A DNA stretch of 64,000 nt. Source: Actinacidiphila glaucinigra (GTDB lineage Bacteria; Actinomycetota; Actinomycetes; Streptomycetales; Streptomycetaceae). Positions 8,201-41,278 of the stretch are shown one piece after another; positions within the stretch are counted from its first letter, which is position 1; every line of letters starts with the position of its first letter. The DNA lies in assembly GCF_900188405.1 (NCBI RefSeq), contig NZ_FZOF01000005.1, positions 434,001 to 498,000 on the forward strand. The letters are read 5' to 3'. Below the pieces are notes generated by a model, which searched no databases, was not told the DNA's origin, and was given only the letters and a program-made list of their open reading frames with translations. The position numbers and the translations under genes are program-made.

Positions 8201-9008
8201 GCTGTCGTCCGCCGGCGCCGAGCGCACCGACTGGGTGACCCCGTCGGGTGAGGCGACCTGGATGGAGGAGGCCGCCAACGGCATCCGCTCGATCCAGTTC
8301 TCCGGGCTGGTCGGCTACCCGGCCGGGCGCACCACCGACGTCCAGTGGTTCGGGCCCGTGGAGCACCCGCGGATGAACGAGAGCCAGTGGCTGCCGCAGC
8401 GCAACGGCGACGTCCTCGACGTCACCATCCCGGCCTGGGGTGACGGCGGCCGCGACCACGCGGGTGTGGTCGGTCCGGGCACCACCTCCCAGGTGAACGA
8501 GCTCTACCGGGGCGGCGACCTCGTCACCCGCACCGAGGGCGGCTGGCTGGGCGGCGACGTCCCGGCGGCGTCCGGCCGGTACCGGCTGGTGACGTCCACC
8601 GAGCGGACGGAGGGGTACCCGTACTCCACCGCGACCCGCACCGAGTGGGGCTTCTCCTCCGCGACGCCGGGCACGGACGACCCGCAGGTGCTCCCGCTCC
8701 TGCAGCTCGACTACGGGATCCGCACCGATGCGGGCGGCGCCGCGCGGCGCGACGCCGAACTCACGGTGAGCGCCTCCCCGTTGCCGGGCGTGTCGGCCGG
8801 GCGGGTCAGCACCGACGCGGTGGAGGTCTCGTACGACGACGGCCGGACGTGGCACCGGGCCTCGCTGCGCGGCGCGGAGGACGGCGCCGCCCGGGTCCGC
8901 CTGGACGCGCCGCGACGCGCCGAGTTCCTGTCGCTGCGCGTGCGCGCCTCGGACAAGCGCGGCAACACGGTGACGCAGACGGTGATCCGGGCGACCGGCC
9001 TGGCCTGA
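5271..9008 (+). CDS. S8 (subtilisin-like) secreted serine peptidase, 1245 residues
   Basis: The GTG start is preceded by AAGGA at a normal distance. A Sec-type signal peptide (RPLFPGRTGLPIVAG...PPAAAS) is followed by a propeptide-like region to about residue 235. The catalytic triad is Asp252 (VLDTGYDPGHPD), His284 (HGHGTHVAS) and Ser459 (GTSMATPHVAG), with the oxyanion Asn in IAAGNSG. About 750 residues follow the catalytic domain, including a PA-like insertion (GKVAVVRYTG) and beta-rich segments shared with the truncated paralogue upstream. It probably degrades extracellular protein. The catalytic cores of the two paralogues align almost without gaps, pointing to an old tandem duplication. 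A terminator hairpin follows. Confidence 0.95.
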   Translation: MRPLFPGRTGLPIVAGVAAVLMVIPPAAASDHAAAGSPSDSVTVTGGAPAGSTPRTVTLITGDRVTVAPGGDGRASVTVEGPRGHRADARITTRQGDTYVYPFAAERYVAAGLLDTDLFNVTRLIADGYDDARSKGLPVILTYSSDARRRLAAPALPEGATGARALTSIDSTATTQDHDQAAEFWADLTGPATAQTTAKAKAGGLALTGGVRKVWLDGKVKADLADSVAQIGAPDVWAGGDTGQGVDVAVLDTGYDPGHPDLDGVVTDSRSFVPGEDVDDHHGHGTHVASTIAGSGAASDGKEKGVAPGVRLHVGKVLSNAGSGSDSWIISGMEWAAREAKARVVSMSLGSDQPTDGTDPMSQAVNELSAETGTLFTIAAGNSGPYEGTVAAPGAADAALTVGAVDSSDAIADFSSRGPRFRDDAMKPEITAPGVDILAARSQWAPFGTGSYATLSGTSMATPHVAGVAALVAAKHPDWNGARIKDALVSTSVATPDIPADSGGNGRVDAVAATSSTLVATATADAGIHPPGGEAGGTVTRTVEWANSGDTAVTVTPRLDAGDAPEGLFTVTDRQVTVPAHGTASTTVTTTLDRAPAGSRFTGHVEGVVDGKAVTRTLLAVSTRDEYHHLRVHVTDRAGDPMVGLVMYQRKGDEYAQALYTDLDGVLDTVVPPGTYTVWTWGAVRGVHGESSYGRALLARTGVVVGNADTDTTLDGTKLRRTEVVTPKTSTDSDIRMDFNQSFKDGSPAITDTATVGDGFDSVWALPMPKASGGDLAYTARWRMQQPLLALSSGDQVFDDLWLQPGSGRPAEGTGTLPAVFAGKGTAAEYASAGAKGKVAVVRYTGDDDQITDAQKAGVALLVVVNDLDGRLREPVRRTTLVVAGISRTEGETLIGRIQDSRSGSVPMRVVGHAETDYLYDLVHTWHGTIPQTQRYAPAEHRLARVDVGFRNEPGTEVDEFRYDIQPYLGVKVGGTRLSSAGAERTDWVTPSGEATWMEEAANGIRSIQFSGLVGYPAGRTTDVQWFGPVEHPRMNESQWLPQRNGDVLDVTIPAWGDGGRDHAGVVGPGTTSQVNELYRGGDLVTRTEGGWLGGDVPAASGRYRLVTSTERTEGYPYSTATRTEWGFSSATPGTDDPQVLPLLQLDYGIRTDAGGAARRDAELTVSASPLPGVSAGRVSTDAVEVSYDDGRTWHRASLRGAEDGAARVRLDAPRRAEFLSLRVRASDKRGNTVTQTVIRATGLA

Positions 9009-13269: not shown

Positions 13270-14256
13270 GTGCTGCAGGCCCTGGGTATCAGCGAGTTCG
13301 ACGAGGACGTCTACCGCGCCTTCCTCAACCGGGCCGGCCTCGACGCACAGGAGTACGCCGGAACGGCCGGAGTCTCCCCGGAGCGCGTCCGCCACGCCGT
13401 GGCACGGCTGGCCGGGCTCGGTCTCCTGCGCCGCGACGGACGGGGCGAGTTCCGCCCCGTCGGGCCCGGTACCGCGCTCACCGCCCTGCTCGACCGGCGC
13501 CGGCTGGAGGCCGAGGCCGCCTTCGCAGGGGTGCGGTCGGTCGTCGACGACCTCGCCGAGGAGTACCGGGCCGGACGGCTGCGCAGCGACCCGGGCAGCC
13601 TGGTGGAGGTGCTTTCGGGACGCGATGTCGTCGCGCCGCGCATCGACGAGCTCAACCGCTCGGTCAGCACGCACATATGGATCCTCGACAAGCCGCCCTA
13701 CCTCGACCGCGCGGACGGGCTCCCGCACACCAACGAGGCGGAGAAGGCGTCGACCGCCGCGTGGGCGCGCGACGGAGTCGACATCCGCTCGGTCTACTGC
13801 CCGGAGTCCATGGAGCGGCCCGGCCGGTTCGAGACGGTGCTGGAGATGGCCGCGCTCGGCGAGCAGGCCCGGATGCTGCCCAGCCTCCCCTTCAAGCTGC
13901 ACATCATCGACCGCCGCGTGGCCCTCGTCCCGCTGGTCGGCGGAGTCTACGACAGCCTCGCCGTCGTGCACCCGTCCGGTCTGCTGGACGCCCTCATCGA
14001 GCTGTACGAGGCGTACTGGGCCAGGGCCGAACCGATCGGCGCACCGGCCCGGACGGCCGGCGGGGAGGGACCCACCCCGGAGGAGGTCGCGCTGCTGACG
14101 ATGCTCCGTGCCGGGCTCAAGGACCAGGCGATCGCCCGTCAACTGGGCTTGAGCACACGGACGGCGACCCGCCGCATCGCGGCGCTCATGGCACGGCTGG
14201 ACGCGAACACGCGCTTCCAGGCCGGGTCGGAGGCCCATGCGCGTGGCTGGATCTGA
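13270..14256 (+). CDS. LuxR/TrmB-like transcriptional regulator
   Basis: The product has 328 residues from GTG. The N-terminal winged helix (FDEDVYRAFLNRAGLDAQEYAG...VSPERVRHAVARLAGLGLL) resembles TrmB-type domains. The middle part recalls phospholipase-D-like effector regions of TrmB-type regulators. The C-terminus carries a LuxR-type helix-turn-helix (LTMLRAGLKDQAIARQLGLSTRTATRRIAALMARL). Many Streptomyces encode such proteins next to secreted-enzyme genes. The divergent placement suggests regulation of the 998-residue subtilase. A possible -10 (GATAAT, 13211-13216) lies upstream, but I see no convincing -35. Confidence 0.9.
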   Translation: MLQALGISEFDEDVYRAFLNRAGLDAQEYAGTAGVSPERVRHAVARLAGLGLLRRDGRGEFRPVGPGTALTALLDRRRLEAEAAFAGVRSVVDDLAEEYRAGRLRSDPGSLVEVLSGRDVVAPRIDELNRSVSTHIWILDKPPYLDRADGLPHTNEAEKASTAAWARDGVDIRSVYCPESMERPGRFETVLEMAALGEQARMLPSLPFKLHIIDRRVALVPLVGGVYDSLAVVHPSGLLDALIELYEAYWARAEPIGAPARTAGGEGPTPEEVALLTMLRAGLKDQAIARQLGLSTRTATRRIAALMARLDANTRFQAGSEAHARGWI

Positions 14257-14341
14257 TCCGTCCTGACGGCACATCACACCGGAACCGATCACATGCGGCC
14301 AAGTGCACACGGAGCGGGCCGAGACGGGTCACCATCGGCGT

Positions 14342-14974
14342 ATGAACGCATCCGCGACCGCCGCCCTCACCCCGCTCCCCGACGGGGTCTGGTCCACCCT
14401 GTCCGCCGCCCGCGAGGCGTACCGCGCCGCCGTCCCGGCCGCGTACGACGAGGTGCTGACGGAGGTCGCGGAGCGTGCCCGGGACACCGGAAGCCTCGGC
14501 AAGACGGACATCGCCGCGCTGGTGGTGTGGAAGCGGCTGCAGGCGAGCACCGCGTGGGTCGTCGAGCTGATGAACCTGCGCGACGCGGAGGTCCGGGCCG
14601 TCACGTCCGGGGCCGTGGACGCGGTCCGCGACCCGCAGGCCCCGCGCGGCGCGGCCGCCCGCGAGGGCCGCAGGGCCCTGCTCCCCCTGCCCGGCTGCCG
14701 CAACGGCGACGCACTGGCCTCGGCACTGCTCACCGCCGCCGCACCGGACCGGATGGCCGTCTACGACCGCCGCGCGCAGTTCGGCCTGGAGCGGCTGGGC
14801 TACCAGTTGACGTCGGCGCCGGGCCGCTACGGCCGCTACATGGACCTCCTCGACGACCTCCTCGTCCGCTCCGGCCCCGTCGCGGACGGCTGGACCGCCC
14901 GCGACATGGACACGGCCCTGTACTGGCTCGGCCGCCAGGCCGCGCCGGCGCCCGGGGACGCCGAGGAGGAGTAG
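14342..14974 (+). CDS. Hypothetical protein
   Basis: The product has 210 residues from ATG 14342; the frame is open to 14303 but without an earlier good start. The sequence is soluble and helix-rich with no signal peptide. Features include an N-terminal segment (DGVWSTLSAAREAYRAAVPAAYDEVLTEVAERA) and a C-terminal part with many Tyr/Arg residues (RMAVYDRRAQFGLERLGYQL) and an acidic tail (GDAEEE). I do not recognise the family. It stands between a LuxR regulator and the convergent GH36 gene. Confidence 0.8.
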   Translation: MNASATAALTPLPDGVWSTLSAAREAYRAAVPAAYDEVLTEVAERARDTGSLGKTDIAALVVWKRLQASTAWVVELMNLRDAEVRAVTSGAVDAVRDPQAPRGAAAREGRRALLPLPGCRNGDALASALLTAAAPDRMAVYDRRAQFGLERLGYQLTSAPGRYGRYMDLLDDLLVRSGPVADGWTARDMDTALYWLGRQAAPAPGDAEEE

Positions 14975-15021
14975 GGGGACGGGCGAGCGAGAAGCGATCC
15001 GGGCCCGGGGCGCGGGGTGGG

Positions 15022-17202
15022 TCAGTCGGCTTGGCGCAGCTCGATCAGCAGGGACTGTTCGGGGTTGAGCTGCGGCATCGGCAGGCCCGCGGCGGTGAGG
15101 AGCGTGCCGGGGAGGGTGAGGCGGTCGTCGATCGCCTCGGTGAGCCAGGCCGGGCCGCTCCTCTGGTGGAAGGAGGGCAGGCCGATGTCCGTGCGGACGC
15201 GTACGCGGTAGCGGAGGGCGGGGTCGAGGCCGGGCAGCGGTACCCGGCCCGGCTGGCCCTCGGGGGAGGTCGCCACGCGGGCCCAGCAGTACAGCGCGGC
15301 CGTGCCGTCGTGGGCGACGACGCCGTGCAGCAGCGTCGCGTCGTCCGGGAGGTCGGCGCGGACGGTGCGTCCGCCGTGCAGCAGCGGGCGCACCTCGCGG
15401 TACAGGGCGGTCCACGCGGTGAGCCGGGCCAGCTCCTCCGGCGTGCAGCGGGTGATGTCCTGCTCGATGCCGGGGTGGCCGAAGAGCGCGGTGGCAAGGC
15501 GGAAGGTGTCGGAGCTGACGCGGGCGGTGGTGTGGCTGGGGTGGGGACCCACGTGGGCGCCGACGAGCTCCGGGGGGAGCAGTTGGCCCGTCCACCGCTG
15601 GATGGACTGCCGTTCCACCGGGTCGTTGCAGTCGGAGGCCCACACCCGGTCGGTCCTGGCGAGGATGCCCAGGTCGACGCGGCCGCCGCCGCTGGCGCAG
15701 CTCTCGATCTCCAGGGCGGGGTGGCGCTCCCGGAGGGTGTCCAGCAGCCGGTAGAGCGCCTCGACCTGGGCGCGCGCCGCCGGGCGGTCGGCCGGTCCGT
15801 TCACGGCCTCGTGCACCTCGCGGTTGTGGTCCCACTTGAGGTAGGCGATGCCGTACTCCCCGATCAGGGCGTCCAGCGCCCCGAGCAGGTGGGCGACGAC
15901 GCCGGGGTGGGAGAGGTCGAGGACGTGCTGCTGCCGGGCCGCGGGGCCGACGCCGCTCACGGGGGCGAGGACCCAGTCCGGGTGCTCGCGGGCCAGGTCC
16001 GAGTCGAGGTTGACCATCTCGGGTTCGACCCACAGGCCGAACTCCATGCCCAGGGAGCGCACATGGCCGGCGAGCGGCGTCAGCCCGTCGGGCCACACCT
16101 CCCGGTCGACCGTCCAGTCGCCGAGCCCCGCGCGGTCGGAGCGGCGGCCGCGGAACCAGCCGTCGTCCAGGACGAAGCGCTCCACTCCGACCTCGGCCGC
16201 ACGGTCGGCGAGCCGCAGGAGGCGTTCCGGGTCGTGGTCGAAGTACACCGCCTCCCAGCTGTTGAGGATGACCGGTCGCGGGCGGCGCGGGTGGCCGGGG
16301 CGGTCGCGGAGCAGGGCGTGGAAGCGGTCGGCGAGGCCGTCCAGGCCGGCCCCGGACCAGGCGTAGTGGCAGACGGGCGTGCGGTGGGTGTCGCCGGGTG
16401 CGAGCCGGACCTCTCCGGCGCGCAGCAGTTCCCCGCCGCCGAGCACGGCGGCGTGGACGCCCGCGCCCTCGGGCAGTTGCTCGACGAGGTAGCGCTGGTC
16501 GCCGCTCCAGGCGACGTGCAGGCCCCAGACCTCGCCCTCGCGGAAGCCGAAGCCGGGTACGCCGACGGCGACGAGGTACGGCGAGTCCAGGCCGGGCTTG
16601 CCGCGCCGGACGTCGCGGGTGTGGGTGCCGTGCGCGAGGAGGCGGCGTTGCGGGGAGCGTTCGCGGCTCCACTTGCCGGTGAAGTCGAGGATCTCGCCGG
16701 CCCGGCGGGGCAGCGGGAGCAGCGCGGTGACCTGCGCGAGGTCGTACGGGGCCGGGTCCGCGTCCGGCTGACGGGTGATCTCGCTGCGGACGGCGAGCAC
16801 CCCGGAGGGCGCCAGCCGGTAGGTGATCGTGATATCGAGCCCCGCCGCGGCGTCGGTGAGGGAGACGGCGAGTTCGCCGCCCTCGGCGTCCTGCCGGACG
16901 GCGGTGCCGGTGGTGGTCAGCCGGGGGGCGGCGGCGCCGCCGTCGAGGTGCCCGTGGTGCGCGGGGGTGCCGGCCCAGCCGTCCGCCTCGGTGGGCCAGA
17001 CGGTGAATCGGCGGGGCGCGTCGAGGGAGTTGTTGAGGACGGCGGGCTCGGCGGTCAGGCTGAGGGCGGCCAGGTCGTCGGCGGACAGCGGACCGAGGTC
17101 GGCCCCCCAGTGGAGCACCCTGGGCACCGGCTCGGTGAGTTCGACGACGAACGCGGTGCCGGCCGCGCGCAGGGGGACGATCCGCGCGGTGGTGTCTGCC
17201 AT
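15022..17202 (-). CDS. Alpha-galactosidase, GH36
   Basis: The product has 726 residues, typical of GH36. The N-terminal beta-supersandwich is followed by a TIM barrel with the nucleophile Asp458 (YLKWDHNREV), the SCASGGGRVDLGI segment and the acid/base Asp524 (ASDCNDPVERQ). The WVEPEMVN substrate-pocket motif is present. No signal peptide is seen, so it should hydrolyse imported alpha-galactosides in the cytoplasm. It is the last gene of the minus-strand sugar cluster, 85 bp after the binding-protein gene. A paralogue at 41279-43417 has SDNTD where this one has SDCND, so substrate preference may differ. Confidence 0.95.
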   Translation of the reverse strand: MADTTARIVPLRAAGTAFVVELTEPVPRVLHWGADLGPLSADDLAALSLTAEPAVLNNSLDAPRRFTVWPTEADGWAGTPAHHGHLDGGAAAPRLTTTGTAVRQDAEGGELAVSLTDAAAGLDITITYRLAPSGVLAVRSEITRQPDADPAPYDLAQVTALLPLPRRAGEILDFTGKWSRERSPQRRLLAHGTHTRDVRRGKPGLDSPYLVAVGVPGFGFREGEVWGLHVAWSGDQRYLVEQLPEGAGVHAAVLGGGELLRAGEVRLAPGDTHRTPVCHYAWSGAGLDGLADRFHALLRDRPGHPRRPRPVILNSWEAVYFDHDPERLLRLADRAAEVGVERFVLDDGWFRGRRSDRAGLGDWTVDREVWPDGLTPLAGHVRSLGMEFGLWVEPEMVNLDSDLAREHPDWVLAPVSGVGPAARQQHVLDLSHPGVVAHLLGALDALIGEYGIAYLKWDHNREVHEAVNGPADRPAARAQVEALYRLLDTLRERHPALEIESCASGGGRVDLGILARTDRVWASDCNDPVERQSIQRWTGQLLPPELVGAHVGPHPSHTTARVSSDTFRLATALFGHPGIEQDITRCTPEELARLTAWTALYREVRPLLHGGRTVRADLPDDATLLHGVVAHDGTAALYCWARVATSPEGQPGRVPLPGLDPALRYRVRVRTDIGLPSFHQRSGPAWLTEAIDDRLTLPGTLLTAAGLPMPQLNPEQSLLIELRQAD

Positions 17203-17287
17203 GGGGGTCCTTTCGGTGTGCTCCGCCGCCGGACGGCCCGGGATGGGGGCGCGTCCGGCGGCGGGGGCTCGGTTCGCTTGCGGTGGC

Positions 17288-18637
17288 TCAGTTCTTCGCG
17301 AGGAGGGTCTTGCTCTGCTTCTCCATGTCCGCGAAGACGGAGTCGTCCTTCTGGCCGGCGAAGTAGCCTTCGAACAGCGGGTTCAGCGCGTCCTGCACCG
17401 CGGCGCCGTTGCCGTAGACCGGGGACGGGTACAGGACCTTGTCCTTCAGCATGCTGGTGAAGACCGACAGGTCGACCCCGTCGGCGGCCAGGGCCTTCGT
17501 CGCGGCGTCCATGGAGGCGGGGATGGACGGGAAGAACGTGCCGGTGCGGGAGGCCTTGGACTGGCAGGCCTCGGAGCCCATGTAGGACACCCACTTCCAG
17601 GTCAGTTCGGGGTGCTTGGTGCCCGCCCAGATGTTGTTGCCGTTGGAGTTGCTCATCACGGCGCGGGTCTTGCCGTCGGGGCCGTACGGCGGCGCCGCGA
17701 TGCCGGTCTTGACGCCGGGGATCTTGGCGAAGGTGGAGGCGGACCAGGAACCGCCGATCTCCATCGCCACCCGGTGGGAGGAGAGCAGGTCGACGTCGCT
17801 GACGCTGGAGGTGAACTCGCCGAGCTTGGGGGCGTATCCCTTCTCCGTCAGGGAGCGCGCCCACTTCAGCGTCTTCACCAGGCGGGGGTCGCCGTAGTTG
17901 AAGACCGTCGGCCAGCTCTCCTTGTCGCCGAGCCGCCACCCGGTGCTGGAGGCGAACGGGCTCCAGGAGGTCTGCCCGATGAAGTCCTTCGCGGCGATCT
18001 GGCCGAAGCCGAAGGTCTTGACGTGGCCCTTGTCGAAGCCGGGCTCGTCGCCGCGGCGCCCCTTCTCATCCACGGTGAGGTGGGCGATCATCTTGCCGAA
18101 CTCGCCGCCGTCGTCGGGGTTCCACGTCACGGACTCGACGTCGGCCTTGCTGTAGCCGGCCTTGGTCAGGGCGTCCTGGTCGTAGTAGAGACCGGCCGCG
18201 GCCCAGTCCAGCGGCAGCGCGTACTGCTTGCCGTCGGTGAACTTCCAGGCGTTCACGCCGACGGAGAACCGGGACAGGTCGAACTTGTCCTTGGCGATGA
18301 AGTCGTCCATCGGCAGCAGCTGGTTCTGGCCGGCGTACGCCTGGAAGAACTGCACGCTGTTCTGGAAGGCGTCGGGGGCGCTGCCCGCGACGAAGCCCGC
18401 GGTCAGCTTGGTGAAGTAGTCGTCGACGTTGTACTGCGAGATCTTGACGGTCGTGCCGGGGTTGGCCTTCTCGAAGTCCGCGGCGCAGGTCTTGTACGCG
18501 GCGGCCTGCTTGTCGTCCCAGGTCCACCAGTTGACGGTCTGCGAACCGCCCGCGGTGTCCGAGCCGGAGGAGCAGGCGGACAGCACCGCGGCGAGGGTGA
18601 GCGTGGCCCCGAGGGCGACGACTGCGCGCATTCTCAT
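17288..18637 (-). CDS. ABC transporter extracellular sugar-binding lipoprotein
   Basis: The product has 449 residues from ATG 18637 with a good GAAGGAATC ribosome site. A lipoprotein signal ends at the lipobox LSAC, followed by SSGSDTAGG. The mature part is a typical family-1 solute-binding protein (QTVNWWTWDDKQAAAYKTCAADFEKANPGT...). It should capture an oligosaccharide outside the membrane and deliver it to the two permeases encoded upstream. The start codon overlaps the esterase stop codon (ATGA), so translation is probably coupled. It is unusual that the binding-protein gene follows the enzyme genes instead of preceding the permeases. Confidence 0.94.
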   Translation of the reverse strand: MRMRAVVALGATLTLAAVLSACSSGSDTAGGSQTVNWWTWDDKQAAAYKTCAADFEKANPGTTVKISQYNVDDYFTKLTAGFVAGSAPDAFQNSVQFFQAYAGQNQLLPMDDFIAKDKFDLSRFSVGVNAWKFTDGKQYALPLDWAAAGLYYDQDALTKAGYSKADVESVTWNPDDGGEFGKMIAHLTVDEKGRRGDEPGFDKGHVKTFGFGQIAAKDFIGQTSWSPFASSTGWRLGDKESWPTVFNYGDPRLVKTLKWARSLTEKGYAPKLGEFTSSVSDVDLLSSHRVAMEIGGSWSASTFAKIPGVKTGIAAPPYGPDGKTRAVMSNSNGNNIWAGTKHPELTWKWVSYMGSEACQSKASRTGTFFPSIPASMDAATKALAADGVDLSVFTSMLKDKVLYPSPVYGNGAAVQDALNPLFEGYFAGQKDDSVFADMEKQSKTLLAKN

Positions 18638-19644
18638 GATTCCTTCTTTCGGGACTGCTGGTGAGGGTGATGGGACGACGTCTTGAGGAGCGCGCGGAAG
18701 GCGCTCAGGGCGATGACCAGGTCCTCGGGGCCGCCGGCGTCGTGGCCGTTGAACTCCCACAGCCGCATCTGCTTCGGCCCGCCGTAACGGTGGTACGCGG
18801 CGAGCGTGGTGGCCGGCGGGCAGACCTCGTCGCGCAGCCCGGCGGAGAACCAGGCGGGCGCGGTGGCGCGGCGGGCGAAGGCGAGCCCGTCGAAGTAGCC
18901 GAGGGTCCGGAAGGTCTGCTCGACCCGGTCCCGGCGGGCGCCGAGGTAGCCGATGAGCTCGGCGTACGGCTGCTCGCCGGTGAGCCGGGCGGCCTGCCGG
19001 ATGTCGCACAGGAACGGCGCCTGGAAGTGCGCGGCGCGCAGTCCGGGGACGAGACCGGCGACCGCCAGGGCGATGCCGCCGCCCTGGCTGGGGCCGGTCA
19101 CCGCGACCCGGTCGGGGTCGGCGTGCGGCGAGGTCCGCAGGGCTTCGACGGCGCGTACGGCGTCGGTGAAGACACGGCGGTAGACGTATGTGTCCCTGTC
19201 CTCGATGCCGCGGGTGAGGAACCCGGGGTGGGAGGGGCCGCTGCCGACCGGGTCCGCGGTGGCGCCGCCGCCCGCCCAGGCGCCGCCCTGGCCGCGGGTG
19301 TCCACCAGCAGGTGGGCGTAGCCGGCGGAGGCCCACAGCAGGTCCTCGACGGGGGCGCCGCGTCCGCTGCCGTAGCCGTGGAACTGCACGACCGCGGGCA
19401 GCGGGCCGCTACGGTGGCGCGGCAGCCGCAGCCAGCCGTGGACAGGGTGGCCGCCGAATCCGGGGAAGACCGCGTCGTAGACGTCCACGGTCTCCAGGTC
19501 GGTGTCGACCGGGGTGAGTTCGAGCCGAGGTTCGTGGTCGCGGGCGGCCTCCAGGGTGTCCTTCCAGAAGGCGTCGAAGTCGGCGGGCTCGCGGTATGCG
19601 CTGCGGTAGGCCCACAGTTCGGGGACGTCGTCCTCGGTCAGCAC
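18634..19644 (-). CDS. Acetyl xylan esterase-like carbohydrate esterase, CE7
   Basis: GTG at 19644 overlaps the end of the GH95 gene (GTGCTGA), giving 336 residues. CE7 signatures are present: DTRGQGG, the nucleophile motif GPSQGGG and a late catalytic His in NGHDAGG (the usual HE pair reads HD here). These enzymes remove O-acetyl groups from short xylo- or other oligosaccharides and from cephalosporin C, usually inside the cell; no signal peptide is seen. Position between GH95 and the binding protein suggests deacetylation of imported oligosaccharides. The stop overlaps the next start, so the three genes form a coupled chain. Confidence 0.92.
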   Translation of the reverse strand: MLTEDDVPELWAYRSAYREPADFDAFWKDTLEAARDHEPRLELTPVDTDLETVDVYDAVFPGFGGHPVHGWLRLPRHRSGPLPAVVQFHGYGSGRGAPVEDLLWASAGYAHLLVDTRGQGGAWAGGGATADPVGSGPSHPGFLTRGIEDRDTYVYRRVFTDAVRAVEALRTSPHADPDRVAVTGPSQGGGIALAVAGLVPGLRAAHFQAPFLCDIRQAARLTGEQPYAELIGYLGARRDRVEQTFRTLGYFDGLAFARRATAPAWFSAGLRDEVCPPATTLAAYHRYGGPKQMRLWEFNGHDAGGPEDLVIALSAFRALLKTSSHHPHQQSRKKES

Positions 19645-22061
19645 GGCCGGGCCTCCTCGCGCGGGGTGAGGTCGGCGCCGAGGGTGACGGCGGCTCCGGT
19701 GGCGACGCGTACCCGGGTGGTGCGGTCGCGGTGGCGGACGGTCACCGGCGCGGTGTCGTCCCCGGCGAGCCGGCGCACCGTCACGGAGGTGACGGCGCCG
19801 TCGTGCCAGGCGAAGTCGGCCGACAGGCCGCCGCGGCAGCGCAGGCCGACGGCCTCGCCCTCGCGCCACTGTGCGGGGAGGGCGGGCAGCAGGTGGACGG
19901 TGCCGTCGTGGCTCTGCAGCACCATCTCGGTGAGCGCCGCCATGAGGCCGTAGTTGCCGTCGATCTGGAACGGCGGGTGGGTGGAGAACAGGTTGGGGAG
20001 CAGGCCGCCCCACTCCGAGCCGTCGACGGGCGCGTCGGTGTCCGGGTCGCCCTCGAACGGGCGGGTCGCCTCGAGGAGGAGCGAGCGGGCCGTCGCGGCG
20101 TCGCGCAACCGGGCGCGCAGGGCGATCTTCCAGGCCCATGACCACCCCATCGCGCCGGGACCGCGTCTGTCGAGCAGGGCCGCGGCGGCGGCCGCGAGTT
20201 CCGGGGTGCCGTCCGGGTCGATCAGGCCGAGCGGGTGGACGGTGACCAGCTGGGAGAGGTGACGGTGGTGGGGGTCCTCCTCGGGGAGGTCGTCGGCCCA
20301 TTCCTGGAGCCAGCCGCCCGCGGCGATCCGGGGCGGGTGCAGGCGCGGCAGGGTTGCGGAGATGCGGCCGCTCAGCGGGGTGTCGATGCCGAGGAGCGCG
20401 GCGGCGCGCCGGGTGCGTTCGAGGACGGCCCGGGTGAGTGCGGTGTCCATGGTGGAGGAGCGGGTGAGCGAGGCCATGGAGCCGTCGGCGGTGAGGTAGT
20501 GGTTCTCCGGCGAGGTGGAGGGGAGGGTGCCCAGCCGCCCCGTGCCGTCGTCCACCAGCCAGTCGAGCAGGAACTCGGCGCAGCCGCTGAGCAGCGGCCA
20601 GGCGCGTTCGCGCAGGAAGGCGGTGTCCTGGGTGAACTCCCAGTGATCCCACAGGTGCTGGACGAGCCAGGCGCCGCCCATCTGCCAGATCGCCCAGGAC
20701 GCGGCGCCGCGGCCCATGCCGACGGGCAGCGCCCAGCCCCACATGTCGGTGTTGTGGTGGGCGACCCAGCCGCGGGCGCCGTACAGCTGCCGGGCGACGT
20801 CCCGGCCGTGCGCGGCAACGCGGTCGAGGAGGTCGAACAGCGGCTCGTGGCAGGGGCCGAGGCCGGCGGCCTCCGCGCCCCAGTAGTTCATCTGTGTGTT
20901 GATGTTGATCGTGTAGTTGGACGACCAGGCGGGGCGCAGGTCGGCGTTCCAGATGCCCTGGAGGTTGGCGGGCGGTCCGGCGTGGGGGCGGGAGGCGGCG
21001 GCCAGGAGGTAGCGGCCGAGCTGGAACAGCACGGTGGCGGTGAGGAGTTCGTCGTCGCCGGAGAGGATGTCGCGGGCGACGTCGTGGGTGCCCGGGCGGC
21101 GCGGTCCGATGCGCAGCGAGGTGCCGCCGAGGAGGGCGCGCTGGTCGGTCTCGTGTGCCTTGAGCAGCTCGCCCGTGCCGTGTTCCGCGGCCCGGGCGGC
21201 GCTGTCGGCGGCGGCTTCGAGATGCGCGGCGCGGCCGGCCGGGGCGTCGAGTCCCCGCCAGTGGCGCAGCGCCTCGGTGGAGCTCGCCACGACGGCGAGG
21301 AGCCGGGTGGCGCCGGTGACGCGAAGGGCTCCCCCGTCGGCGGTGACCTCTCCGTCGGTGGTCACGCGCAGGGCGAGCGCCCCGAAGGGGTCGTAGCCGT
21401 TGACGGGGCCGTCCGCGTACCGCAGTGGTTCCGGGACGTCCGGTTCGTGGGCGGGTGCCCCGTCGACGGGGATCTCGACGCCGATGACGACCCCTTCGGG
21501 GCCGGCGCAGCGGTGCACCTCCCGGAGGGGGGTGGTGACCTCCAGCCGCACGTCGACGGTGCCGCCTCGCGCGGCGAGGTCGGTGCACAGCGTCCCGGTG
21601 GCGGCGTCGGCCCAGGTCCGGCGGGTGACCGAGGCGCCCGACGGCAGGTCGAAGGCGTCCTCGGCGATCCCGCTGTCGAGGTTGAGGGTGCGGCCCCGGT
21701 ACGTGGCATCCTGCGCGCCGGGCACGGTCAGCCACAGGTCGGCGTAGGGCAGGTACTCCTGGCTGTACGGGCCCTCGAAGGCCATCAGGAGTCCCTCGGC
21801 CCGGTGCGGTTCGCCGGCCCGGAGCGCGTCGCGGACCTCCTCGAGCCGCCGCGGGCCGGCGCCGGCGGCGACGACGTCGGCGAGCGCCTTCGCGGGCCCG
21901 CCGGGGGTGCCGGACCACACGGTGGAGTCGTTGATCTGGATCCGGGCGCGGTGGGTGCCGCCGAAGACCATGGCGCCGAGCCGGCCGTTGCCGACCGGTG
22001 CCGCCTCGTTCCAGTCGGCCGCGGGCGCGGGCCAGCGGAGCAGCAGGTCGGTGGGGTTCAT
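19638..22061 (-). CDS. GH95 glycoside hydrolase (alpha-L-fucosidase / alpha-L-galactosidase)
   Basis: The product has 807 residues. It starts with the GH95 hallmark WNEAAPVGNGRLGAMVFGG and includes the active-site region NYTININTQMNYWGAE with the paired Asn residues known from GH95, and LPSTSPENHY, near the usual acid Glu. GH95 enzymes invert terminal alpha-1,2-L-fucose or alpha-L-galactose, for example on xyloglucan side chains. No signal peptide is seen, so action on imported oligosaccharides is likely. It lies 28 bp after the second permease and overlaps the CE7 esterase. Fucose and L-galactose specificity cannot be separated from the sequence alone. Confidence 0.93.
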   Translation of the reverse strand: MNPTDLLLRWPAPAADWNEAAPVGNGRLGAMVFGGTHRARIQINDSTVWSGTPGGPAKALADVVAAGAGPRRLEEVRDALRAGEPHRAEGLLMAFEGPYSQEYLPYADLWLTVPGAQDATYRGRTLNLDSGIAEDAFDLPSGASVTRRTWADAATGTLCTDLAARGGTVDVRLEVTTPLREVHRCAGPEGVVIGVEIPVDGAPAHEPDVPEPLRYADGPVNGYDPFGALALRVTTDGEVTADGGALRVTGATRLLAVVASSTEALRHWRGLDAPAGRAAHLEAAADSAARAAEHGTGELLKAHETDQRALLGGTSLRIGPRRPGTHDVARDILSGDDELLTATVLFQLGRYLLAAASRPHAGPPANLQGIWNADLRPAWSSNYTININTQMNYWGAEAAGLGPCHEPLFDLLDRVAAHGRDVARQLYGARGWVAHHNTDMWGWALPVGMGRGAASWAIWQMGGAWLVQHLWDHWEFTQDTAFLRERAWPLLSGCAEFLLDWLVDDGTGRLGTLPSTSPENHYLTADGSMASLTRSSTMDTALTRAVLERTRRAAALLGIDTPLSGRISATLPRLHPPRIAAGGWLQEWADDLPEEDPHHRHLSQLVTVHPLGLIDPDGTPELAAAAAALLDRRGPGAMGWSWAWKIALRARLRDAATARSLLLEATRPFEGDPDTDAPVDGSEWGGLLPNLFSTHPPFQIDGNYGLMAALTEMVLQSHDGTVHLLPALPAQWREGEAVGLRCRGGLSADFAWHDGAVTSVTVRRLAGDDTAPVTVRHRDRTTRVRVATGAAVTLGADLTPREEARPC

Positions 22062-22089
22062 GGGGTGCCGTCCTGGGGCGCGTGCGCGG

Positions 22090-23016
22090 TCACTTGAGCC
22101 CGGAGAAGCCGATGGAGTTGACGATCCGCCTGCCGAAGGCGAGGAAGAGCAGCAGCATCGGCAGCGCCGCGATGAGGGCGGCGGCCATCAGCCCCGCCCA
22201 GTCGGGGGCGGCCTGCGGCGAGGACTGCTTGAACACGCCGAGCGCGAGCGTCAGCGGCTGCACCCCGGCGTCGTTGGTGACCAGCAGCGGCCACATGTAG
22301 TCGTTCCAGGCGTTGACGAACATCAGGAGCGACACGGTCGCGATCGGCGCCGCCGACATCGGCAGGATGATGCGGTAGAGGATCCGCAGCGGTCCCGCGC
22401 CGTCGATGATCGCGGCCTCCTCGATCTCGCTGCTCAGGCCGAGCATGAACTGGCGCAGGAAGAACACCGTGAACGCCTGGAAGAGCCCGCCGGGCAGGAT
22501 GAGTCCGGCGAAGGTGTTGGTGAGGCCGAGGTCCTTGATGAGGACGAAGTTCGGCAGCAGCGTGAAGACGCTCGGCACCATCAGCGCGCTGATGAGGATG
22601 CCGAACACCAGGTTGCGGCCGCGCCAGTGCAGTCGTGAGAAGGCGTAGGCCGCGCAGGCGGAGAAAAGCACGATGAGCACGGTCTGCACGGATGCGTAGA
22701 TCACCGAGTTGCGCAGGTAGAGCGCGATGTCGAGGGACGCGCCCGAGCCGCCCTGGGCCAGGGCCTCGGCGGTGGAGGCCAGGCCCAGCGCCCGTTTGAA
22801 GGCGCCGAAGGTGAACCCGACGGGCAGCGGCGAGGAGGGGTCGGTGGCGAGCCGGTAGTTGTTGGACAGCGCGGTGCGCACGATCCAGTAGAAGGGGAAG
22901 AGCGTGATCAGCGAGACGAGGCCGAGGTAGGCCCAGGCCACGATCCGGCCGGGGGTCGCCTTGCGGGTGCGGGTGCGCCGCACGCTCGTCGTACGGGGTG
23001 CGAGGGGGAGCGTCAT
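22090..23016 (-). CDS. Carbohydrate ABC transporter permease (MalG type)
   Basis: The product has 308 residues with about six membrane helices. The EAA loop that contacts the ATPase is EEAAIIDGAGPLRILYRIILPM. It pairs with the permease encoded 12 bp upstream and with the lipoprotein at 17288-18637. No ATP-binding subunit is encoded nearby, so an ATPase shared among sugar importers (MsiK in Streptomyces) is inferred. Confidence 0.95.
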   Translation of the reverse strand: MTLPLAPRTTSVRRTRTRKATPGRIVAWAYLGLVSLITLFPFYWIVRTALSNNYRLATDPSSPLPVGFTFGAFKRALGLASTAEALAQGGSGASLDIALYLRNSVIYASVQTVLIVLFSACAAYAFSRLHWRGRNLVFGILISALMVPSVFTLLPNFVLIKDLGLTNTFAGLILPGGLFQAFTVFFLRQFMLGLSSEIEEAAIIDGAGPLRILYRIILPMSAAPIATVSLLMFVNAWNDYMWPLLVTNDAGVQPLTLALGVFKQSSPQAAPDWAGLMAAALIAALPMLLLFLAFGRRIVNSIGFSGLK

Positions 23017-23028
23017 CGGGGGCCTCCT

Positions 23029-24081
23029 TCAGTTCAGGTCGGATTCGTCGGCCCGAGCGAGCCGGAGCTGGGTGAAGGTGACCGTGATGAGCAGGGCGAA
23101 CAGGGCCAGCGACATCGTCGCCGCGTAGCCGAAGTCGAACTGGCGGAAAGCCTTGTCGTAGATGTACATCTGCAGCACGTTCGAGGCGTTGGCGGGGCCG
23201 CCCCTGGTGGTGACGGCGACGATGTCGAAGACCTGGAAGGCGTTGATCACCGTCAGGACGACCACCATCACGAGGATCGGCCGCAGCAGCGGCACGGTGA
23301 GCCGGCGGAACATCTGGAACTCGCTGGCGCCGTCCACCCGCCCGGCCTCGTAGATCGTGGACGGGATGGTCTGCAGCCCGGCGAAGATCAGCAGGGAGTA
23401 GTAGCCCATCCACTTCCAGACGCTGATCGCGGCGAGCGAGGGGATCGCCCAGGGGCCGCTGCCGAGGAAGAGCACCGGATGGCCGATCAGGTGGTCGAGC
23501 ACGATGTTGACGACCCCGAGATGCGGGTCGAGCATCCACTGCCACACCAGCGCGGCGATCACGTTGGAGATCAGGAACGGCAACAGCATCACGCCGCGCA
23601 GCAGCGAGGAGTCGGTGACGCGGTGCAGCACCACCGCGGTCACCAGGGAGATCAGGGTGCCGAAGACGACGGAGAGGGCCACGAACCAGAGGGTGACGAG
23701 GAGGGAGTGCCAGAAGACCCCGTCACCGGCCATCTCGCGGAAGTTGGCCAGTCCCACCCAGCGCGGCGGGGTGAGGACGTGGAACTCGGTGAAGCCCAGG
23801 TAGATGCCGCGCAGGGTCGGGTAGGCGTAGAAGATCGCGAACCCGACCACGGCGGGCAGGATCAGCAGCAGCGCGACCGGCAGGTCCCGCCGCCGGGCCG
23901 CCGCGGACCGGGTCGCGGTCACGCGCCCGGGCCGGCGGCCGCCGGTGTTCTTGCGGACCTTCAGGGGTCCGCGGGTCTCGCGGGTCTTCGGGCTGGAAGA
24001 GGCCGTGGTGGCCCCCGTACCGGCTGCGCCGGACGGCGGTGCCACCGGCGTCGTGTGGCTGCCCTGCGATGTGACCACCAC
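23029..24081 (-). CDS. Carbohydrate ABC transporter permease (MalF/UgpA type)
   Basis: The product has 350 residues from GTG preceded by AAGGAGAG. A long charged N-terminal tail (residues 1-70, rich in Thr, Pro and Arg) precedes six hydrophobic helices. The EAA loop reads YEAGRVDGASEFQMFRRLTVPLL. It is the first permease of the locus, 85 bp after the GH27 gene on the same strand. No separate promoter is obvious in that gap, so co-transcription with GH27 is plausible. Confidence 0.95.
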   Translation of the reverse strand: MVVTSQGSHTTPVAPPSGAAGTGATTASSSPKTRETRGPLKVRKNTGGRRPGRVTATRSAAARRRDLPVALLLILPAVVGFAIFYAYPTLRGIYLGFTEFHVLTPPRWVGLANFREMAGDGVFWHSLLVTLWFVALSVVFGTLISLVTAVVLHRVTDSSLLRGVMLLPFLISNVIAALVWQWMLDPHLGVVNIVLDHLIGHPVLFLGSGPWAIPSLAAISVWKWMGYYSLLIFAGLQTIPSTIYEAGRVDGASEFQMFRRLTVPLLRPILVMVVVLTVINAFQVFDIVAVTTRGGPANASNVLQMYIYDKAFRQFDFGYAATMSLALFALLITVTFTQLRLARADESDLN

Positions 24082-24166
24082 GGCACTCTCCTTCTCGTGC
24101 GTCGGGCCTTCTCGTGCGTCGGGCCGAACGGGTGGGACGGCGGCCCGCTGCCGGGCCGGCCGTCGG

Positions 24167-26308
24167 TCAGACGGTGATCCGGTCGACGTCGGACACGTAG
24201 TCGGACGGGTTGCCGAAGGCGATCGTGTTGGCCCCGGCCTTGAGGTGGACGGGCACGGTGACCGACCGCGGGCGGCCCCAGTCGTTGTCGTTGCCGCCGT
24301 GCAGCGGCAGCTGGAAGGCGGTGCCGTTGACGGTGACCACGGCCGTACGGCCCGAGGATCCGTCGGTGAAGTCCACCGTCATCAGGTAGGTGCCGTCCTT
24401 CGGCGCCGTCACGTCCTTGATCGTCACGGAGGCGTCGACGCCCAGGTTGCCGACCTTCTTGCCGCCGGAGCAGCGGGAGCAGTCGCTGATGCTCGCGTTG
24501 CCGGTGCGGGGGTTCCCCGACGCCTCGGCCTCGTAGGCGGTGCGCCCTTCGGCGGCGGGGGTGGTCAGGGAGACGGCGTTGCCCGGTGCGGACGTACGGC
24601 CCCTGGCGTCGTGGGCGACGACGGTGAACACGTAGCCGGTGGCGGCGTCCAGGCCGGTGACGGTGGCGGAGGTGCCGTCAACCGTGGCGACCTTGGCGCC
24701 GCCGGCGTACACCTCGTAACCGGTGGTGGCGGTGCCGGTGTTCACCGCGTCCCAGGCGAGCGAGACGCTGCCGGCCGTGGCGGCGGTGGCGCGCACGCCG
24801 AGCGGGACTCCGGGCTTTCCGGTCGTCTTCGCCGGGGTGACGCGCAGCAGCCGGGAGCCGTGCGGCGGCAGGTTGTCGGTGAAGCCGTCACCGACCGTGC
24901 CGAGGTTCTTGCGGCTCCACAGGTCGCGGACGGCGGGCCTGCCGCTGATGCCCAGCTCGCTCCAGTCGGCGGTCACGTCGGAGTAGCCCTTGCCGAGGTT
25001 GAACAGGGCGACCGTGTAGCTGCCGTCGGCGTTGCGGGCGTACCAGACCTGCTGCGGGGTGTCCTGGCTGAGCGGCCTGGCGGGGTTGCCGGCCTGGTCG
25101 ACGGCGATGACCTCGTCGTTGGTGAGCAGCGACAGGCCGTACGCGTCGAGCTTGGTGAGGTCGTCGCCGATGTACAGCGGGGCGCTCTCGATGGCCCACA
25201 GCGTCATGTAGCTCTGCCGCTCGACCTCGTTGAGGCCGTCGAGCGGGCCCGCGCCGACGTCGAGGGAGTCGAGGTTGTTCCAGTGCCCCGGCCCGGCGTC
25301 GTCGATCCACGGGACGACGTCGTTCCACCGCTGCTTGACCGAGTTGTTCCAGGTCACCAGGGTGTCGCAGTAGCACTCGACGTCGGTGTCCACGCGCCAG
25401 CCGTTGGAGTTCTCCTTCCAGACGTCCACCTTGTCGTGGCTGAGCGACCAGGACAGAACGAACTGGATGGGCCGGCCGGTCCGCTCCAGCGCGGCGTGCC
25501 AGGTCTTGATGTCGGGGACGTTGTCGTGTGCCGCGTCACCCTGGTTGGAGCCGGGGCCGACACCGTCGATCTTCAGGAAGTCCACTCCCCAGCCGGCCAG
25601 TTGGTCGGCCACGGACTGGATGTACTTCTCGGTGCACGGGCTGGCGAAGTTCAGCTGGTAGGAGACGTTGTCCCAGCCGCTGGTCTTGCGCAGGTCGGGG
25701 TAGACGATGTCCTTGGTCGTGCACCCCGGCGCCCCGTGGATCGGCGTCCTGCCGTCGTTGTACGTGTCGATGTACAGGCCGACCGCCAGGTAGAGCCCGA
25801 ACTTCAGGCCCTTGGCGTGCAGTCGGTCGCCGAGCCACTTCATGCCGTGCGGGAACTTGACGGGGTCCGCGACGGGCCGGCCGTACTCGTCGGAAAGGCT
25901 CTTGTTCGTCTCGCTGCCGACGTTCCAGCCGGCGTCGATGTTGACGTACTCGTAGCCGTGCCGCTTCAGCTTGGACGCGAGGATGTCGGCCTGCTGCAGC
26001 ACGTGCGGCTCGGTGAGCCAGGAGCCGCCGTAGCCGGGGAAGTTGGTGGACTCCAGGCTCCAGCTGCTCCAGCCCATGTAGGGCTTGGCGCCGACCACGG
26101 GGGCGGTCTCCGAAACGGCGGCCGCCGCCCGCGGCACGGAGGACGCGGATGCGGAGGACGCGGGTGCGGCGGGCGACGCCGCGGCGGGTACGGCGAGGGC
26201 CGTGGCGAGCGCGGTGGCGACGAGCGCGGGCACGGCGGCCTTGCGCATGCCGCCGCGCCTGCGTGCCACGGGCCATCTGAGACGTGCGAGTACAGCTGAA
26301 CGGGCCAT
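24167..26308 (-). CDS. Secreted GH27 glycosidase with Fn3 and CBM-like domains
   Basis: ATG 26308 with GGAG 7 nt upstream gives 713 residues. A signal peptide with an Arg-rich n-region is followed by a GH27 barrel: AKPYMGWSSWSLES, nucleophile Asp248 (FLKIDGVGPG) and acid/base Asp309 (WRVDTDVECYCDT). A beta-sandwich, an Fn3 domain (about 525-610) and a CBM6/35-like module with a Cys pair (SDCSRCSGG) follow. GH27 members remove terminal alpha-galactose or beta-L-arabinopyranose. As the only exported glycosidase of this cluster it may trim side chains outside before uptake. It has a recognisable promoter and is divergent from ROK. Confidence 0.93.
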   Translation of the reverse strand: MARSAVLARLRWPVARRRGGMRKAAVPALVATALATALAVPAAASPAAPASSASASSVPRAAAAVSETAPVVGAKPYMGWSSWSLESTNFPGYGGSWLTEPHVLQQADILASKLKRHGYEYVNIDAGWNVGSETNKSLSDEYGRPVADPVKFPHGMKWLGDRLHAKGLKFGLYLAVGLYIDTYNDGRTPIHGAPGCTTKDIVYPDLRKTSGWDNVSYQLNFASPCTEKYIQSVADQLAGWGVDFLKIDGVGPGSNQGDAAHDNVPDIKTWHAALERTGRPIQFVLSWSLSHDKVDVWKENSNGWRVDTDVECYCDTLVTWNNSVKQRWNDVVPWIDDAGPGHWNNLDSLDVGAGPLDGLNEVERQSYMTLWAIESAPLYIGDDLTKLDAYGLSLLTNDEVIAVDQAGNPARPLSQDTPQQVWYARNADGSYTVALFNLGKGYSDVTADWSELGISGRPAVRDLWSRKNLGTVGDGFTDNLPPHGSRLLRVTPAKTTGKPGVPLGVRATAATAGSVSLAWDAVNTGTATTGYEVYAGGAKVATVDGTSATVTGLDAATGYVFTVVAHDARGRTSAPGNAVSLTTPAAEGRTAYEAEASGNPRTGNASISDCSRCSGGKKVGNLGVDASVTIKDVTAPKDGTYLMTVDFTDGSSGRTAVVTVNGTAFQLPLHGGNDNDWGRPRSVTVPVHLKAGANTIAFGNPSDYVSDVDRITV

Positions 26309-26490
26309 GGGGGCACTCCATCCCGGCGCGACGGCGTCCGCTTCGAGTGGGCAGGGGGTACGGCAGGGGGGTCCCCCGGTGGCGGTCGTCCCGGAACACC
26401 ACCGAGGGCGGGCGTGCCGCGACCGGGGGAGGCTCCGGTCGCGCTCCTCGCCGGGGGGCACTTCGTCCGCTCCGGGCGAGGAGTGCGGCG

Positions 26491-26520
26491 AATGTAGCCA
26501 GGCTTTCCTTCCAGCGTCAA
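26491..26520 (-). promoter_or_regulatory. Promoter of the GH27 sugar operon
   Basis: On the minus strand, -35 TTGACG (26520-26515) and -10 TACATT (26496-26491) are separated by 18 bp. The spacer contains CTGGAAGGAAAG, similar to motifs near the ROK gene and the second GH36 gene, so it may hold a repressor site. Confidence 0.65.
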
Positions 26521-26630
26521 CATATTCCGCGGCAAAAATCGGATGTCTGATCCGCCGGATCACAGCCCTGGCCGGAGAATCCGCCTCGGAACCCCTGTGT
26601 TCTCGCCGAAAGATGGGATGAGTAGGCCTC

Positions 26631-26659
26631 TTCCTTACTTTCCCTTGGAAAGGTATGGT
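26631..26659 (+). promoter_or_regulatory. Probable leaderless promoter and inverted repeat of the first ROK gene
   Basis: A -10-like TATGGT (26654-26659) lies 7 nt before ATG 26667, so transcription may start at or next to the start codon. Upstream, CTTTCC-CTT-GGAAAG forms a short perfect inverted repeat near 26638-26652. A weak -35 (TTCCTT, 26631-26636) is 17 bp away. Confidence 0.5.
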
Positions 26660-26666
26660 CCCGGGC

Positions 26667-27821
26667 ATGAGCCTCGCCGACCAGCCCCCCGCCGCCGTCC
26701 TGGTCTTCCAGACCCTGCTCGTCCACGGCTCCCTCACCCGTGCCGAGATCGGGCGGCGCACGGGTCTGTCGGCGGGCGCGGTGACCAAGGCCGCCACTCC
26801 CCTGCTGGCGGACGGCTGGATCACCGAACTCGGCAGACCGGCCGGCGAGCGGGCCAGCGGCCGCCCCGCGACCCCGATGGCCGTACGCGCCGACCGCGCG
26901 CGGTTCGTCGGCGTGAAGGTGACCGGTGACGAACTCATCGGCGTGCTCACCGACCTGACCGCCCGGCCGCTGGCCTCCCGGCGCGCCGCACTGGACTCCC
27001 GAGACGTCGGGACCGTAGTACTGGCGATCGCCCGGCTCATCGGGCAACTGCGCGCCGCCGCGGGCGCGGAGGGGGACGACGCCGTCCACAGCGTCGGCGT
27101 CACGATCTCCGGGGACGTGGACGGGCAGACCGGCACCGTGCAGTACTCGCCGTTCCTCGACTGGCGCCGGGTGCCGCTCGCGCAGCTGGTGGAGTCGGCG
27201 TCCGGCATCCCGACCGTGATCGAGAACGACGTGCGCGCGCTGACCGTCGCCGAGCAGTGGTTCGGCGCCGGGGTGGGGCTGTCCTCGTTCGCCCTGGTCA
27301 CGGTCGGCGCGGGCATCGGCTGCGGGCTGTCCATCGGCGGCCGGGTGGTGTCCGGGGCCCACGGGGTGTCCGGCGAGGTGGGGCATCTGCCGGTGGGCGG
27401 CACCGACCGCACCTGCACCTGCGGCAACACCGGGTGCGTGGAGACCGTCGCCTCCACGCACGCCATCACCGAGCAGGCCCGGCAGGCCACCGGCGACCCC
27501 GCGCTCACGATGGAGGAGGCGGTGCGGCTGGCCCACGCCGACAACGCGGCCGTCCGCGCGGTCTTCTCACGCGCCGGGCACGTGATGGGACTGGCGATGG
27601 CCTCGGTGGCCAACCTCATCGGCCCGGAGCGCATCATCATCTCCGGCGAGGGCGCGGCCTCCTACGACCTGTTCGCCGACCAGATCCGGCAGACCTTCGC
27701 CGACCACGCCTTCGGCGCCGCGGCCGACTGCGACCTCGTCGTGCGTCCGCTGCCCTTCGAGGAGTGGGCGCGCGGCGGCGCGGCCGTCGCCGCACAGCGG
27801 GTCTTCGCCCCCGCGAAGTGA
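26667..27821 (+). CDS. ROK family transcriptional regulator
   Basis: ATG 26667 gives 384 residues. ATG 26655 is possible but lies within a likely -10 element. The N-terminal winged helix (TLLVHGSLTRAEIGRRTGLSAGAVTKAATPLLADGW) is followed by the ROK sugar-kinase-like fold, with the Zn-binding type motif CTCGNTGCVE. ROK repressors bind a sugar ligand and release DNA. It is divergent from the GH27 operon and is the natural candidate regulator for it. A close paralogue lies at 39924-41099. Confidence 0.95.
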   Translation: MSLADQPPAAVLVFQTLLVHGSLTRAEIGRRTGLSAGAVTKAATPLLADGWITELGRPAGERASGRPATPMAVRADRARFVGVKVTGDELIGVLTDLTARPLASRRAALDSRDVGTVVLAIARLIGQLRAAAGAEGDDAVHSVGVTISGDVDGQTGTVQYSPFLDWRRVPLAQLVESASGIPTVIENDVRALTVAEQWFGAGVGLSSFALVTVGAGIGCGLSIGGRVVSGAHGVSGEVGHLPVGGTDRTCTCGNTGCVETVASTHAITEQARQATGDPALTMEEAVRLAHADNAAVRAVFSRAGHVMGLAMASVANLIGPERIIISGEGAASYDLFADQIRQTFADHAFGAAADCDLVVRPLPFEEWARGGAAVAAQRVFAPAK

Positions 27822-36625: not shown

Positions 36626-36689
36626 GGGTCGGGCCTCCTGGGGGTGGGGGTACGGCGGGTGCGGTGCGGGTGTGCCGGGCCTGGCGAGG

Positions 36690-38581: not shown

Positions 38582-38601
38582 GGTGAACCTTCCCGGTCCG
38601 G

Positions 38602-39915: not shown

Positions 39916-39923
39916 CGCTACTC

Positions 39924-41099: not shown

Positions 41100-41106
41100 G
41101 GCCGGG

Positions 41107-41143: not shown

Positions 41144-41210
41144 TCAAGGTTCCTCGGAAGTTGCCCCTGTGAGGTCACGTCAACTGGAAAACCCCGGACC
41201 AGGGTGGGTG

Positions 41211-41240: not shown

Positions 41241-41278
41241 GCCGCCTGTCCCCTGGCACCACCAGAACGTGAGGACCC

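Follow-up and report, generated by a model that had tools for sequence, protein, structure and literature searches.

A ROK-flanked operon joining GH27, GH95, CE7 and GH36 genes to an importer without a local ATPase in Actinacidiphila glaucinigra

Genes, export signals and control elements of the operon

As listed in Table 1, all seven expected genes were found on the minus strand of the window (the whole 64,000-nucleotide stretch of A. glaucinigra DNA that was analysed), next to a divergent ROK gene. Pfam families agreed with the first-pass annotation, which had placed a GH27, two permeases, a GH95, an esterase, a solute-binding protein (SBP) and a GH36 on one strand with overlapping GH95, CE7 and SBP genes: the CE7 start lay inside the GH95 gene (7-nt overlap), and the CE7 stop overlapped the SBP start by 4 nt (ATGA). 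The order ROK, GH27, permease, permease, GH95, CE7, SBP, GH36 was the same in five of the six same-genus genomes examined, indicating that the arrangement was far from chance. The divergent ROK regulator is a member of the operon unit.

Table 1. Coordinates of the operon, the ROK gene and candidate control elements in the window
Feature	Position	Strand	Basis
GH27 glycosidase, predicted secreted	24167..26308	-	Pfam Melibiase_2, Melibiase_C, fn3, sub-threshold CBM35
ABC sugar permease 1, CUT1, MalF/UgpA-like	23029..24081	-	Pfam BPD_transp_1; NCBIfam UgpA/MalF below cut-off
ABC sugar permease 2, MalG/UgpE-like	22090..23016	-	BPD_transp_1; EAA loop motif EEAAIIDGAGPL read directly
GH95, alpha-L-fucosidase/alpha-L-galactosidase family, predicted cytoplasmic	19638..22061	-	Pfam and PDB matches
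CE7 acetyl esterase, predicted cytoplasmic	18634..19644	-	Pfam AXE1; PDB 1vlq; motifs
SBP, predicted lipoprotein	17288..18637	-	Pfam SBP_bac_1
GH36 alpha-galactosidase, AgaA/AgaB type, predicted cytoplasmic	15022..17202	-	Pfam Melibiase; PDB AgaB 314 bits
ROK-family regulator, N-terminal HTH, divergent	26655..27821	+	Pfam ROK; conserved beside operon
Operator-like palindrome TTACTTTCC-CTT-GGAAAGGTA	26635..26655	+	Just upstream of ROK; conserved in aligned loci
Predicted operon promoter TTGACG-18 bp-TACATT, spacer with GGAAGGAAA	26491..26520	-	Conserved intergenic block; consensus reading
12-bp hairpin, predicted 5' leader of GH27	26373..26408	-	Kept in nine loci

A Sec-type signal at the GH27 N-terminus and an LSAC lipobox in the SBP were read by eye, and no signal peptide was evident by eye in GH95, CE7 or GH36; the cellular locations in Table 1 are those that these signals predict. 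The GH95 catalytic domain (PF22124) scored 465.9 bits and retained the catalytic Asn pair (N386 and N388), with the TININTQMNYW motif aligned to 4ufc; its PDB matches were BH0842, 8zbv, 7kmq and BACOVA_03438 (4ufc). The CE7 protein matched AXE1 (PF05448) at 315.5 bits and PDB 1vlq, an acetyl xylan esterase/cephalosporin-C deacetylase, at 305 bits, and contained the Ser-Asp-His motifs GPSQG (nucleophile), GLRDEV and HDAGG. GH36 carried the Melibiase domain together with the GH36 N- and C-terminal domains (PF02065, PF16875 and PF16874). Large secreted subtilase-like proteases lay on both sides of the sugar loci, at 43587-47555 (called by Pfam) and at 1-2763, 5271-9008 and 10067-13063 (called by eye).

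The elements upstream of GH27 and ROK were assigned putative roles as operator, promoter and leader hairpin. The palindrome had a single exact match in the genome, its own site, and one two-mismatch match elsewhere (reversed-pattern control, 0). A regulon search with this operator across the genome gave no second convincing site and thus no clue to further target genes. The ROK start is possibly slightly downstream of the one listed (MSLADQ...). In the hairpin, compared among nine Streptomyces/Actinacidiphila loci, 95% of cells were paired, two pairs showed compensatory change and the loop core CCGGGACGACC was invariant; covariation over these nine loci was not significant against shuffles, and Rfam gave no RNA family for it.

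No ATPase gene was found among the operon genes, as had been expected from the first reading, in which the ATPase came from elsewhere. The MalK OB-fold domain was matched five times in the genome. A lone MalK/MsiK-type gene (372 aa) with no adjoining permease was located on contig C60 (L130:6913-8031), and another ATPase, on contig C30, sat after a complete importer. An SBP and a permease pair with no ATPase gene beside them, plus a lone MalK-type ATPase in the genome, make up the gene content of an MsiK-type system, and the C60 protein is the natural MsiK candidate. Its partnership with the importer would follow the precedent of Streptomyces, in which MsiK energises several sugar importers (PMC4890002, PMC6167110). 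The nearest solved sequence to the SBP was mycobacterial UspC, a weak match, and no close relative of known specificity was found.

Occurrence of the gene set and of the GH95-CE7 pair

GH95 orthologues with 65-90% identity to that of the window were present in seven of 35 same-genus genomes, the window genome included. GTDB genomes were then scanned with a GH95 alignment, which returned 80 loci. A simple GC-frame gene caller was used to annotate the 39 actinobacterial ones with GH95 identities of about 50% or higher, which were then clustered. Within 10 kb of GH95, 28 of these 39 loci had CE7 and 28 had GH36; the SBP family was present in 27 loci, ROK in 26 and GH27 in 24. The genera were Streptomyces, Streptacidiphilus, Amycolatopsis, Kutzneria, Lentzea, Planotetraspora, Microbispora, Asanoa, Microbacterium, Leifsonia, Promicromonospora and others. 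Pairwise GH95 distances correlated with those of CE7 (r 0.91), SBP (0.95) and GH27 (0.92) in Mantel comparisons that ignore shared ancestry; GH36 and permease distances tracked GH95 less closely, both being sometimes exchanged. This recurrence in dozens of actinobacteria indicated that the gene set is a real, apparently uncharacterised nutrient system and not an oddity. Literature searches with thin coverage of subscription journals (GH95 with CE7 in Streptomyces; GH95 with fucogalactan; GH95 with GH27/GH36 in actinobacteria) gave no description of this locus.

Two irregularities were seen among the same-genus loci. In G031 a transposase-like gene (IS110-type by eye) lay between the two permease genes (L031:11978-13183), and the GH95 orthologue of G009 contained an in-frame TAG (L009, G009:C201; L037), possibly marking a pseudogene or a sequence error.

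GH95 beside CE7 had been taken for an uncommon pairing, which the survey contradicted. Besides the 28 of 39 loci with CE7 nearby, a count extended to the window and the other loci of the genus gave 28 loci with GH95 and CE7 side by side on one strand; the two genes overlapped in 27 of the 28, mostly by 4 or 7 nt, indicating that GH95-CE7 is a conserved unit. The whole genome contained only three strong AXE1 matches, which makes it improbable that a CE7 gene stands near GH95 by chance. An SGNH/GDSL hydrolase lay beside the cluster in six of the eight loci without CE7 (flanks complete) versus two of 28 with CE7 (Fisher p 0.0004, kinship of the loci ignored), which fits a role of the SGNH hydrolase as a substitute esterase. 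Conservation of CE7, and an SGNH hydrolase in most loci without it, supports deacetylation as part of the pathway.

A second, paralogous locus was found in the window at 34799-43417, separated by 7 kb from the first locus's ROK gene; neither that ROK gene nor the paralogous locus had been named in the first-pass annotation. It contained GH27, two permeases, SBP and ROK (minus strand) and GH36 (plus strand), and GH95 and CE7 were absent from it. Identities between the two loci were 53% for GH27, 54% for ROK, 38% for GH36, 26% for the permeases and 25% for the SBP. The substrate of the second locus may be an undecorated relative of the one used by the first. In Planotetraspora and relatives (L039, L042; partly L041, L059), GH95, and CE7 where seen, were joined to SBP, GH36 and ROK of the second-locus type, and in G009, the sixth same-genus genome, ROK and GH36 of that type stood beside GH27, permeases, GH95, CE7 and SBP of the first-locus type. 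Since it occurs on two chassis, GH95-CE7 resembles a cassette joined to uptake loci of the alpha-galactoside type, and comparing the two chassis offers a direct test of what the pair contributes.

Released sugars, GH27 specificity and candidate glycans

L-fuconate-dehydratase-type genes adjoined the orthologous GH95 cluster in Microbacterium trichothecenolyticum and Streptomyces sp. Y2F8-2, which favours L-fucose, or its analogue L-galactose, as the sugar released by GH95. The window genome had L-fuconate-dehydratase-type loci, named by sequence resemblance, on contigs C42 and C59; the C59 locus comprised genes for an Rbs-type transporter and for L-fuconate-dehydratase-like, SDR, GntR and lactonase-like proteins, and it also held the second GH95 of the genome, an exported one. 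L-fuconate dehydratase was found in 33 of the 35 same-genus genomes; being near-universal in the genus, its presence in the window genome was uninformative and was set aside as evidence.

A gene resembling MR/MLE sugar-acid dehydratases, 362 aa long in every case, lay in or beside seven orthologous loci (L043:4915-6003, L052:5055-6143, L054:5049-6137, L056:5087-6175, L027:15074-16162, L058:14609-15697 and L069:14596-15684). In Pseudonocardiales its place was directly 5' of GH27, in the same orientation. The window genome had no close copy of it. Within the genus it was present in three of seven cluster genomes versus two of 28 others (Fisher p 0.044). As evidence for an L-galactonate/L-fuconate step the gene was not decisive, since its nearest solved relatives were mixed (anhydro-L-galactonate cycloisomerase and talarate/galactarate dehydratase).

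The GH27 protein had the Melibiase fold with two catalytic Asp residues (D178 and D239, model numbering), invariant in a 17-sequence alignment. In the window protein and at least 90% of 17 relatives, the DxxW motif has Ala directly after its conserved Asp (DAGW in the window protein), and alignment to the PDB sequence match placed this Ala at position 67 of GsAbp. At the equivalent position GH27 alpha-galactosidases have an Asp that contacts the C6-OH, characterised beta-L-arabinopyranosidases have Ile or Glu, and two flexible enzymes from fungi have Cys (PMC4598101). The window GH27 thus had neither the Asp of the former nor the Ile or Glu of the latter. Ala in place of Asp makes it improbable that the enzyme is an ordinary alpha-galactosidase.

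GsAbp, a beta-L-arabinopyranosidase and also the best PDB sequence match of GH27, was the structure closest to its AF2 model (mean pLDDT 79.5), with a VIA Z of 37.6, 31% identity and 396 residues matched at 3.0 A; for plant alpha-galactosidases Z was about 33. A GH27 isomalto-dextranase was among the structural matches, the beta-L-arabinopyranosidases being closer. The C-terminal domain of the model matched CBM35 (2wz8, Z 21.7, 1.1 A over 124 residues) and was similar to the CBM35 of an exo-beta-1,3-galactanase. Ala at the C6-OH site in a model nearest to GsAbp suggests that the specificity of this clade is possibly new.

Judged from its families, the enzyme set predicts a substrate with acetyl groups, an alpha-L-fucosyl or alpha-L-galactosyl residue, and alpha-D-galactose or beta-L-arabinopyranose. 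Of the branched, acetylated glycan proposed by the first-pass annotation, import-coupled use, acetylation and L-fucose or L-galactose ends stood, acetylation being upheld by the conserved CE7 and its putative SGNH substitute; terminal galactose as the GH27 target was weakened by the Ala at the alpha-galactosidase Asp position. Candidate polymers are arabinogalactan or glucuronoarabinoxylan side chains and fungal fucogalactan, each fitting part of the set.

The relationship of GH27 to GsAbp in both sequence and structure, and its galactanase-like CBM35, point to side chains of arabinogalactan-proteins or gums. GH27 would then be a secreted beta-L-arabinopyranosidase, GH95 would take alpha-1,2-L-fucose and GH36 alpha-D-galactose or beta-L-arabinopyranose. 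This is a possible reading, held tentatively: characterised beta-L-arabinopyranosidases have Ile or Glu and not Ala (PMC4598101), the operon encodes no galactanase, GH39, GH43 or GH51, and acetyl groups are left unexplained.

Another candidate is a corn-fibre-type glucuronoarabinoxylan. CE7 would deacetylate the xylan after oligosaccharide import, and GH95 and GH36 would act as alpha-L-galactosidase and alpha-D-galactosidase on its side chains. Acetyl xylan esterases are among the CE7 members. On corn xylan, Bacteroides ovatus uses a GH95 alpha-L-galactosidase together with an alpha-galactosidase (PMC4491172); two GH95 alpha-L-galactosidases are also present in Herbinix LL1355 (PMC7176698), and the window GH95 has Thr at the position of Thr370 in BACOVA_03438. 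However, Thr is also present in XacAfc95, which is fucose-specific and whose T395H change left its preference unaltered (PMC8245568), and at the equivalent position of the second GH95 of the genome, within a locus of L-fucose-type catabolism; the Thr/His site was therefore rejected as a discriminator of fucose and galactose. As the operon also lacks a xylanase, xylosidase, alpha-xylosidase and arabinofuranosidase, glucuronoarabinoxylan is a doubtful substrate.

A fungal fucogalactan, an alpha-1,6-D-galactan with alpha-1,2-L-fucose branches, could be degraded by this enzyme set with no further enzyme: GH27 would open the backbone outside the cell, and GH95 and GH36 would finish the oligosaccharides inside. 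Mushroom polymers with O-2-substituted 1,6-linked galactose have been described (PMC9410249), and Ala at the C6-OH site could admit a C6-linked residue; the structural matches include the GH27 isomalto-dextranase. Against this, galactose acetylation was rejected in Macrolepiota procera (PMC9410249), so that CE7 would be unexplained, GH27 was nearer to the beta-L-arabinopyranosidases than to the isomalto-dextranase, and the literature search gave no link between GH95 and mushroom fucogalactan. We regard a fucogalactan substrate as improbable. A bolder proposal, to which we give still less credence, is that the GH27 clade of both window loci has an unreported specificity (e.g. backbone-cutting or oligosaccharide-releasing on C6-linked alpha-galactan), and that no system for an acetylated, fucosylated alpha-galactan had been described before this operon.

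The galactose of xyloglucan is beta-linked, and degradation of this polymer needs a beta-galactosidase and GH31. Among the genes from 13270 to 27821, Pfam gave no GH31 alpha-xylosidase and no GH35/GH2 beta-galactosidase, and two alpha-galactosidase-family enzymes recurred in the conserved cluster; without GH31 or GH35 in the operon, xyloglucan is unlikely as the substrate. That GH95 acts as an alpha-1,2-fucosidase and CE7 deacetylates galactose on xyloglucan oligosaccharides is highly improbable, even though a Xanthomonas xyloglucan locus joins GH95 with an acetyl esterase (PMC8245568).

Predicted pathway and comparison with known systems

We consider it likely that the operon is a ROK-regulated CUT1-type system for uptake and degradation of an acetylated glycan. 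Outside the cell, the secreted GH27-CBM35 enzyme would trim or cut the polymer. Oligosaccharides still bearing acetyl groups and alpha-L-fucosyl or alpha-L-galactosyl ends would be imported by the lipoprotein SBP and the two permeases, powered by the shared MsiK-type ATPase from another contig. In the cytoplasm, CE7 would remove the acetyl groups, GH95 the L-sugar and GH36 alpha-D-galactose (or beta-L-arabinopyranose), in an order of hydrolysis that we infer. The freed L-sugar could enter one of the L-fuconate-dehydratase pathways of the genome. Probably the divergent ROK protein acts as repressor at both promoters and is released by a sugar present inside the cell.

GH95 and an acetyl esterase in overlapping genes, paired with two alpha-galactosidase-family enzymes, constitute a widespread actinobacterial module, and identification of its glycan would bring to light a carbon source in soil for which many actinobacteria are equipped. 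The GH27 and GH95 clades may supply new specificities for the analysis of plant and fungal polysaccharides.

The importer resembles the Streptomyces CUT1 systems CebEFG-MsiK and DasABC-MsiK in its lipoprotein SBP and permease pair with no ATPase gene nearby, in the intracellular glycosidase genes beside the transporter and in the lone MalK-type ATPase elsewhere, the putative partner; it differs from them in its ROK regulator, its glycan and its enzyme set. GsAbp and CpArap27, GH27 group VI beta-L-arabinopyranosidases, share the nearest fold and sequence and the catalytic Asp residues with the window GH27, which has about 31% identity to them, Ala and not Ile at the specificity position, and additional fn3 and CBM35 domains. 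PUL-XylL of Bacteroides ovatus (BACOVA_03438) likewise directs a GH95 and an alpha-galactosidase to side chains of a complex glycan, but with SusCD, periplasmic enzymes, xylanases and many debranching enzymes, whereas the operon has an ABC importer, a GH95 predicted to be cytoplasmic and no xylanase. The Xanthomonas xyloglucan locus (GH74, GH31, GH35, GH95, CE20) also combines GH95 with an acetyl esterase; its esterase is CE20, its uptake is TonB-dependent and it includes GH31 and GH35, whereas the operon has CE7 and neither of these two glycosidases. The architecture of the operon is ordinary, and its enzyme combination and GH27 clade are unusual.
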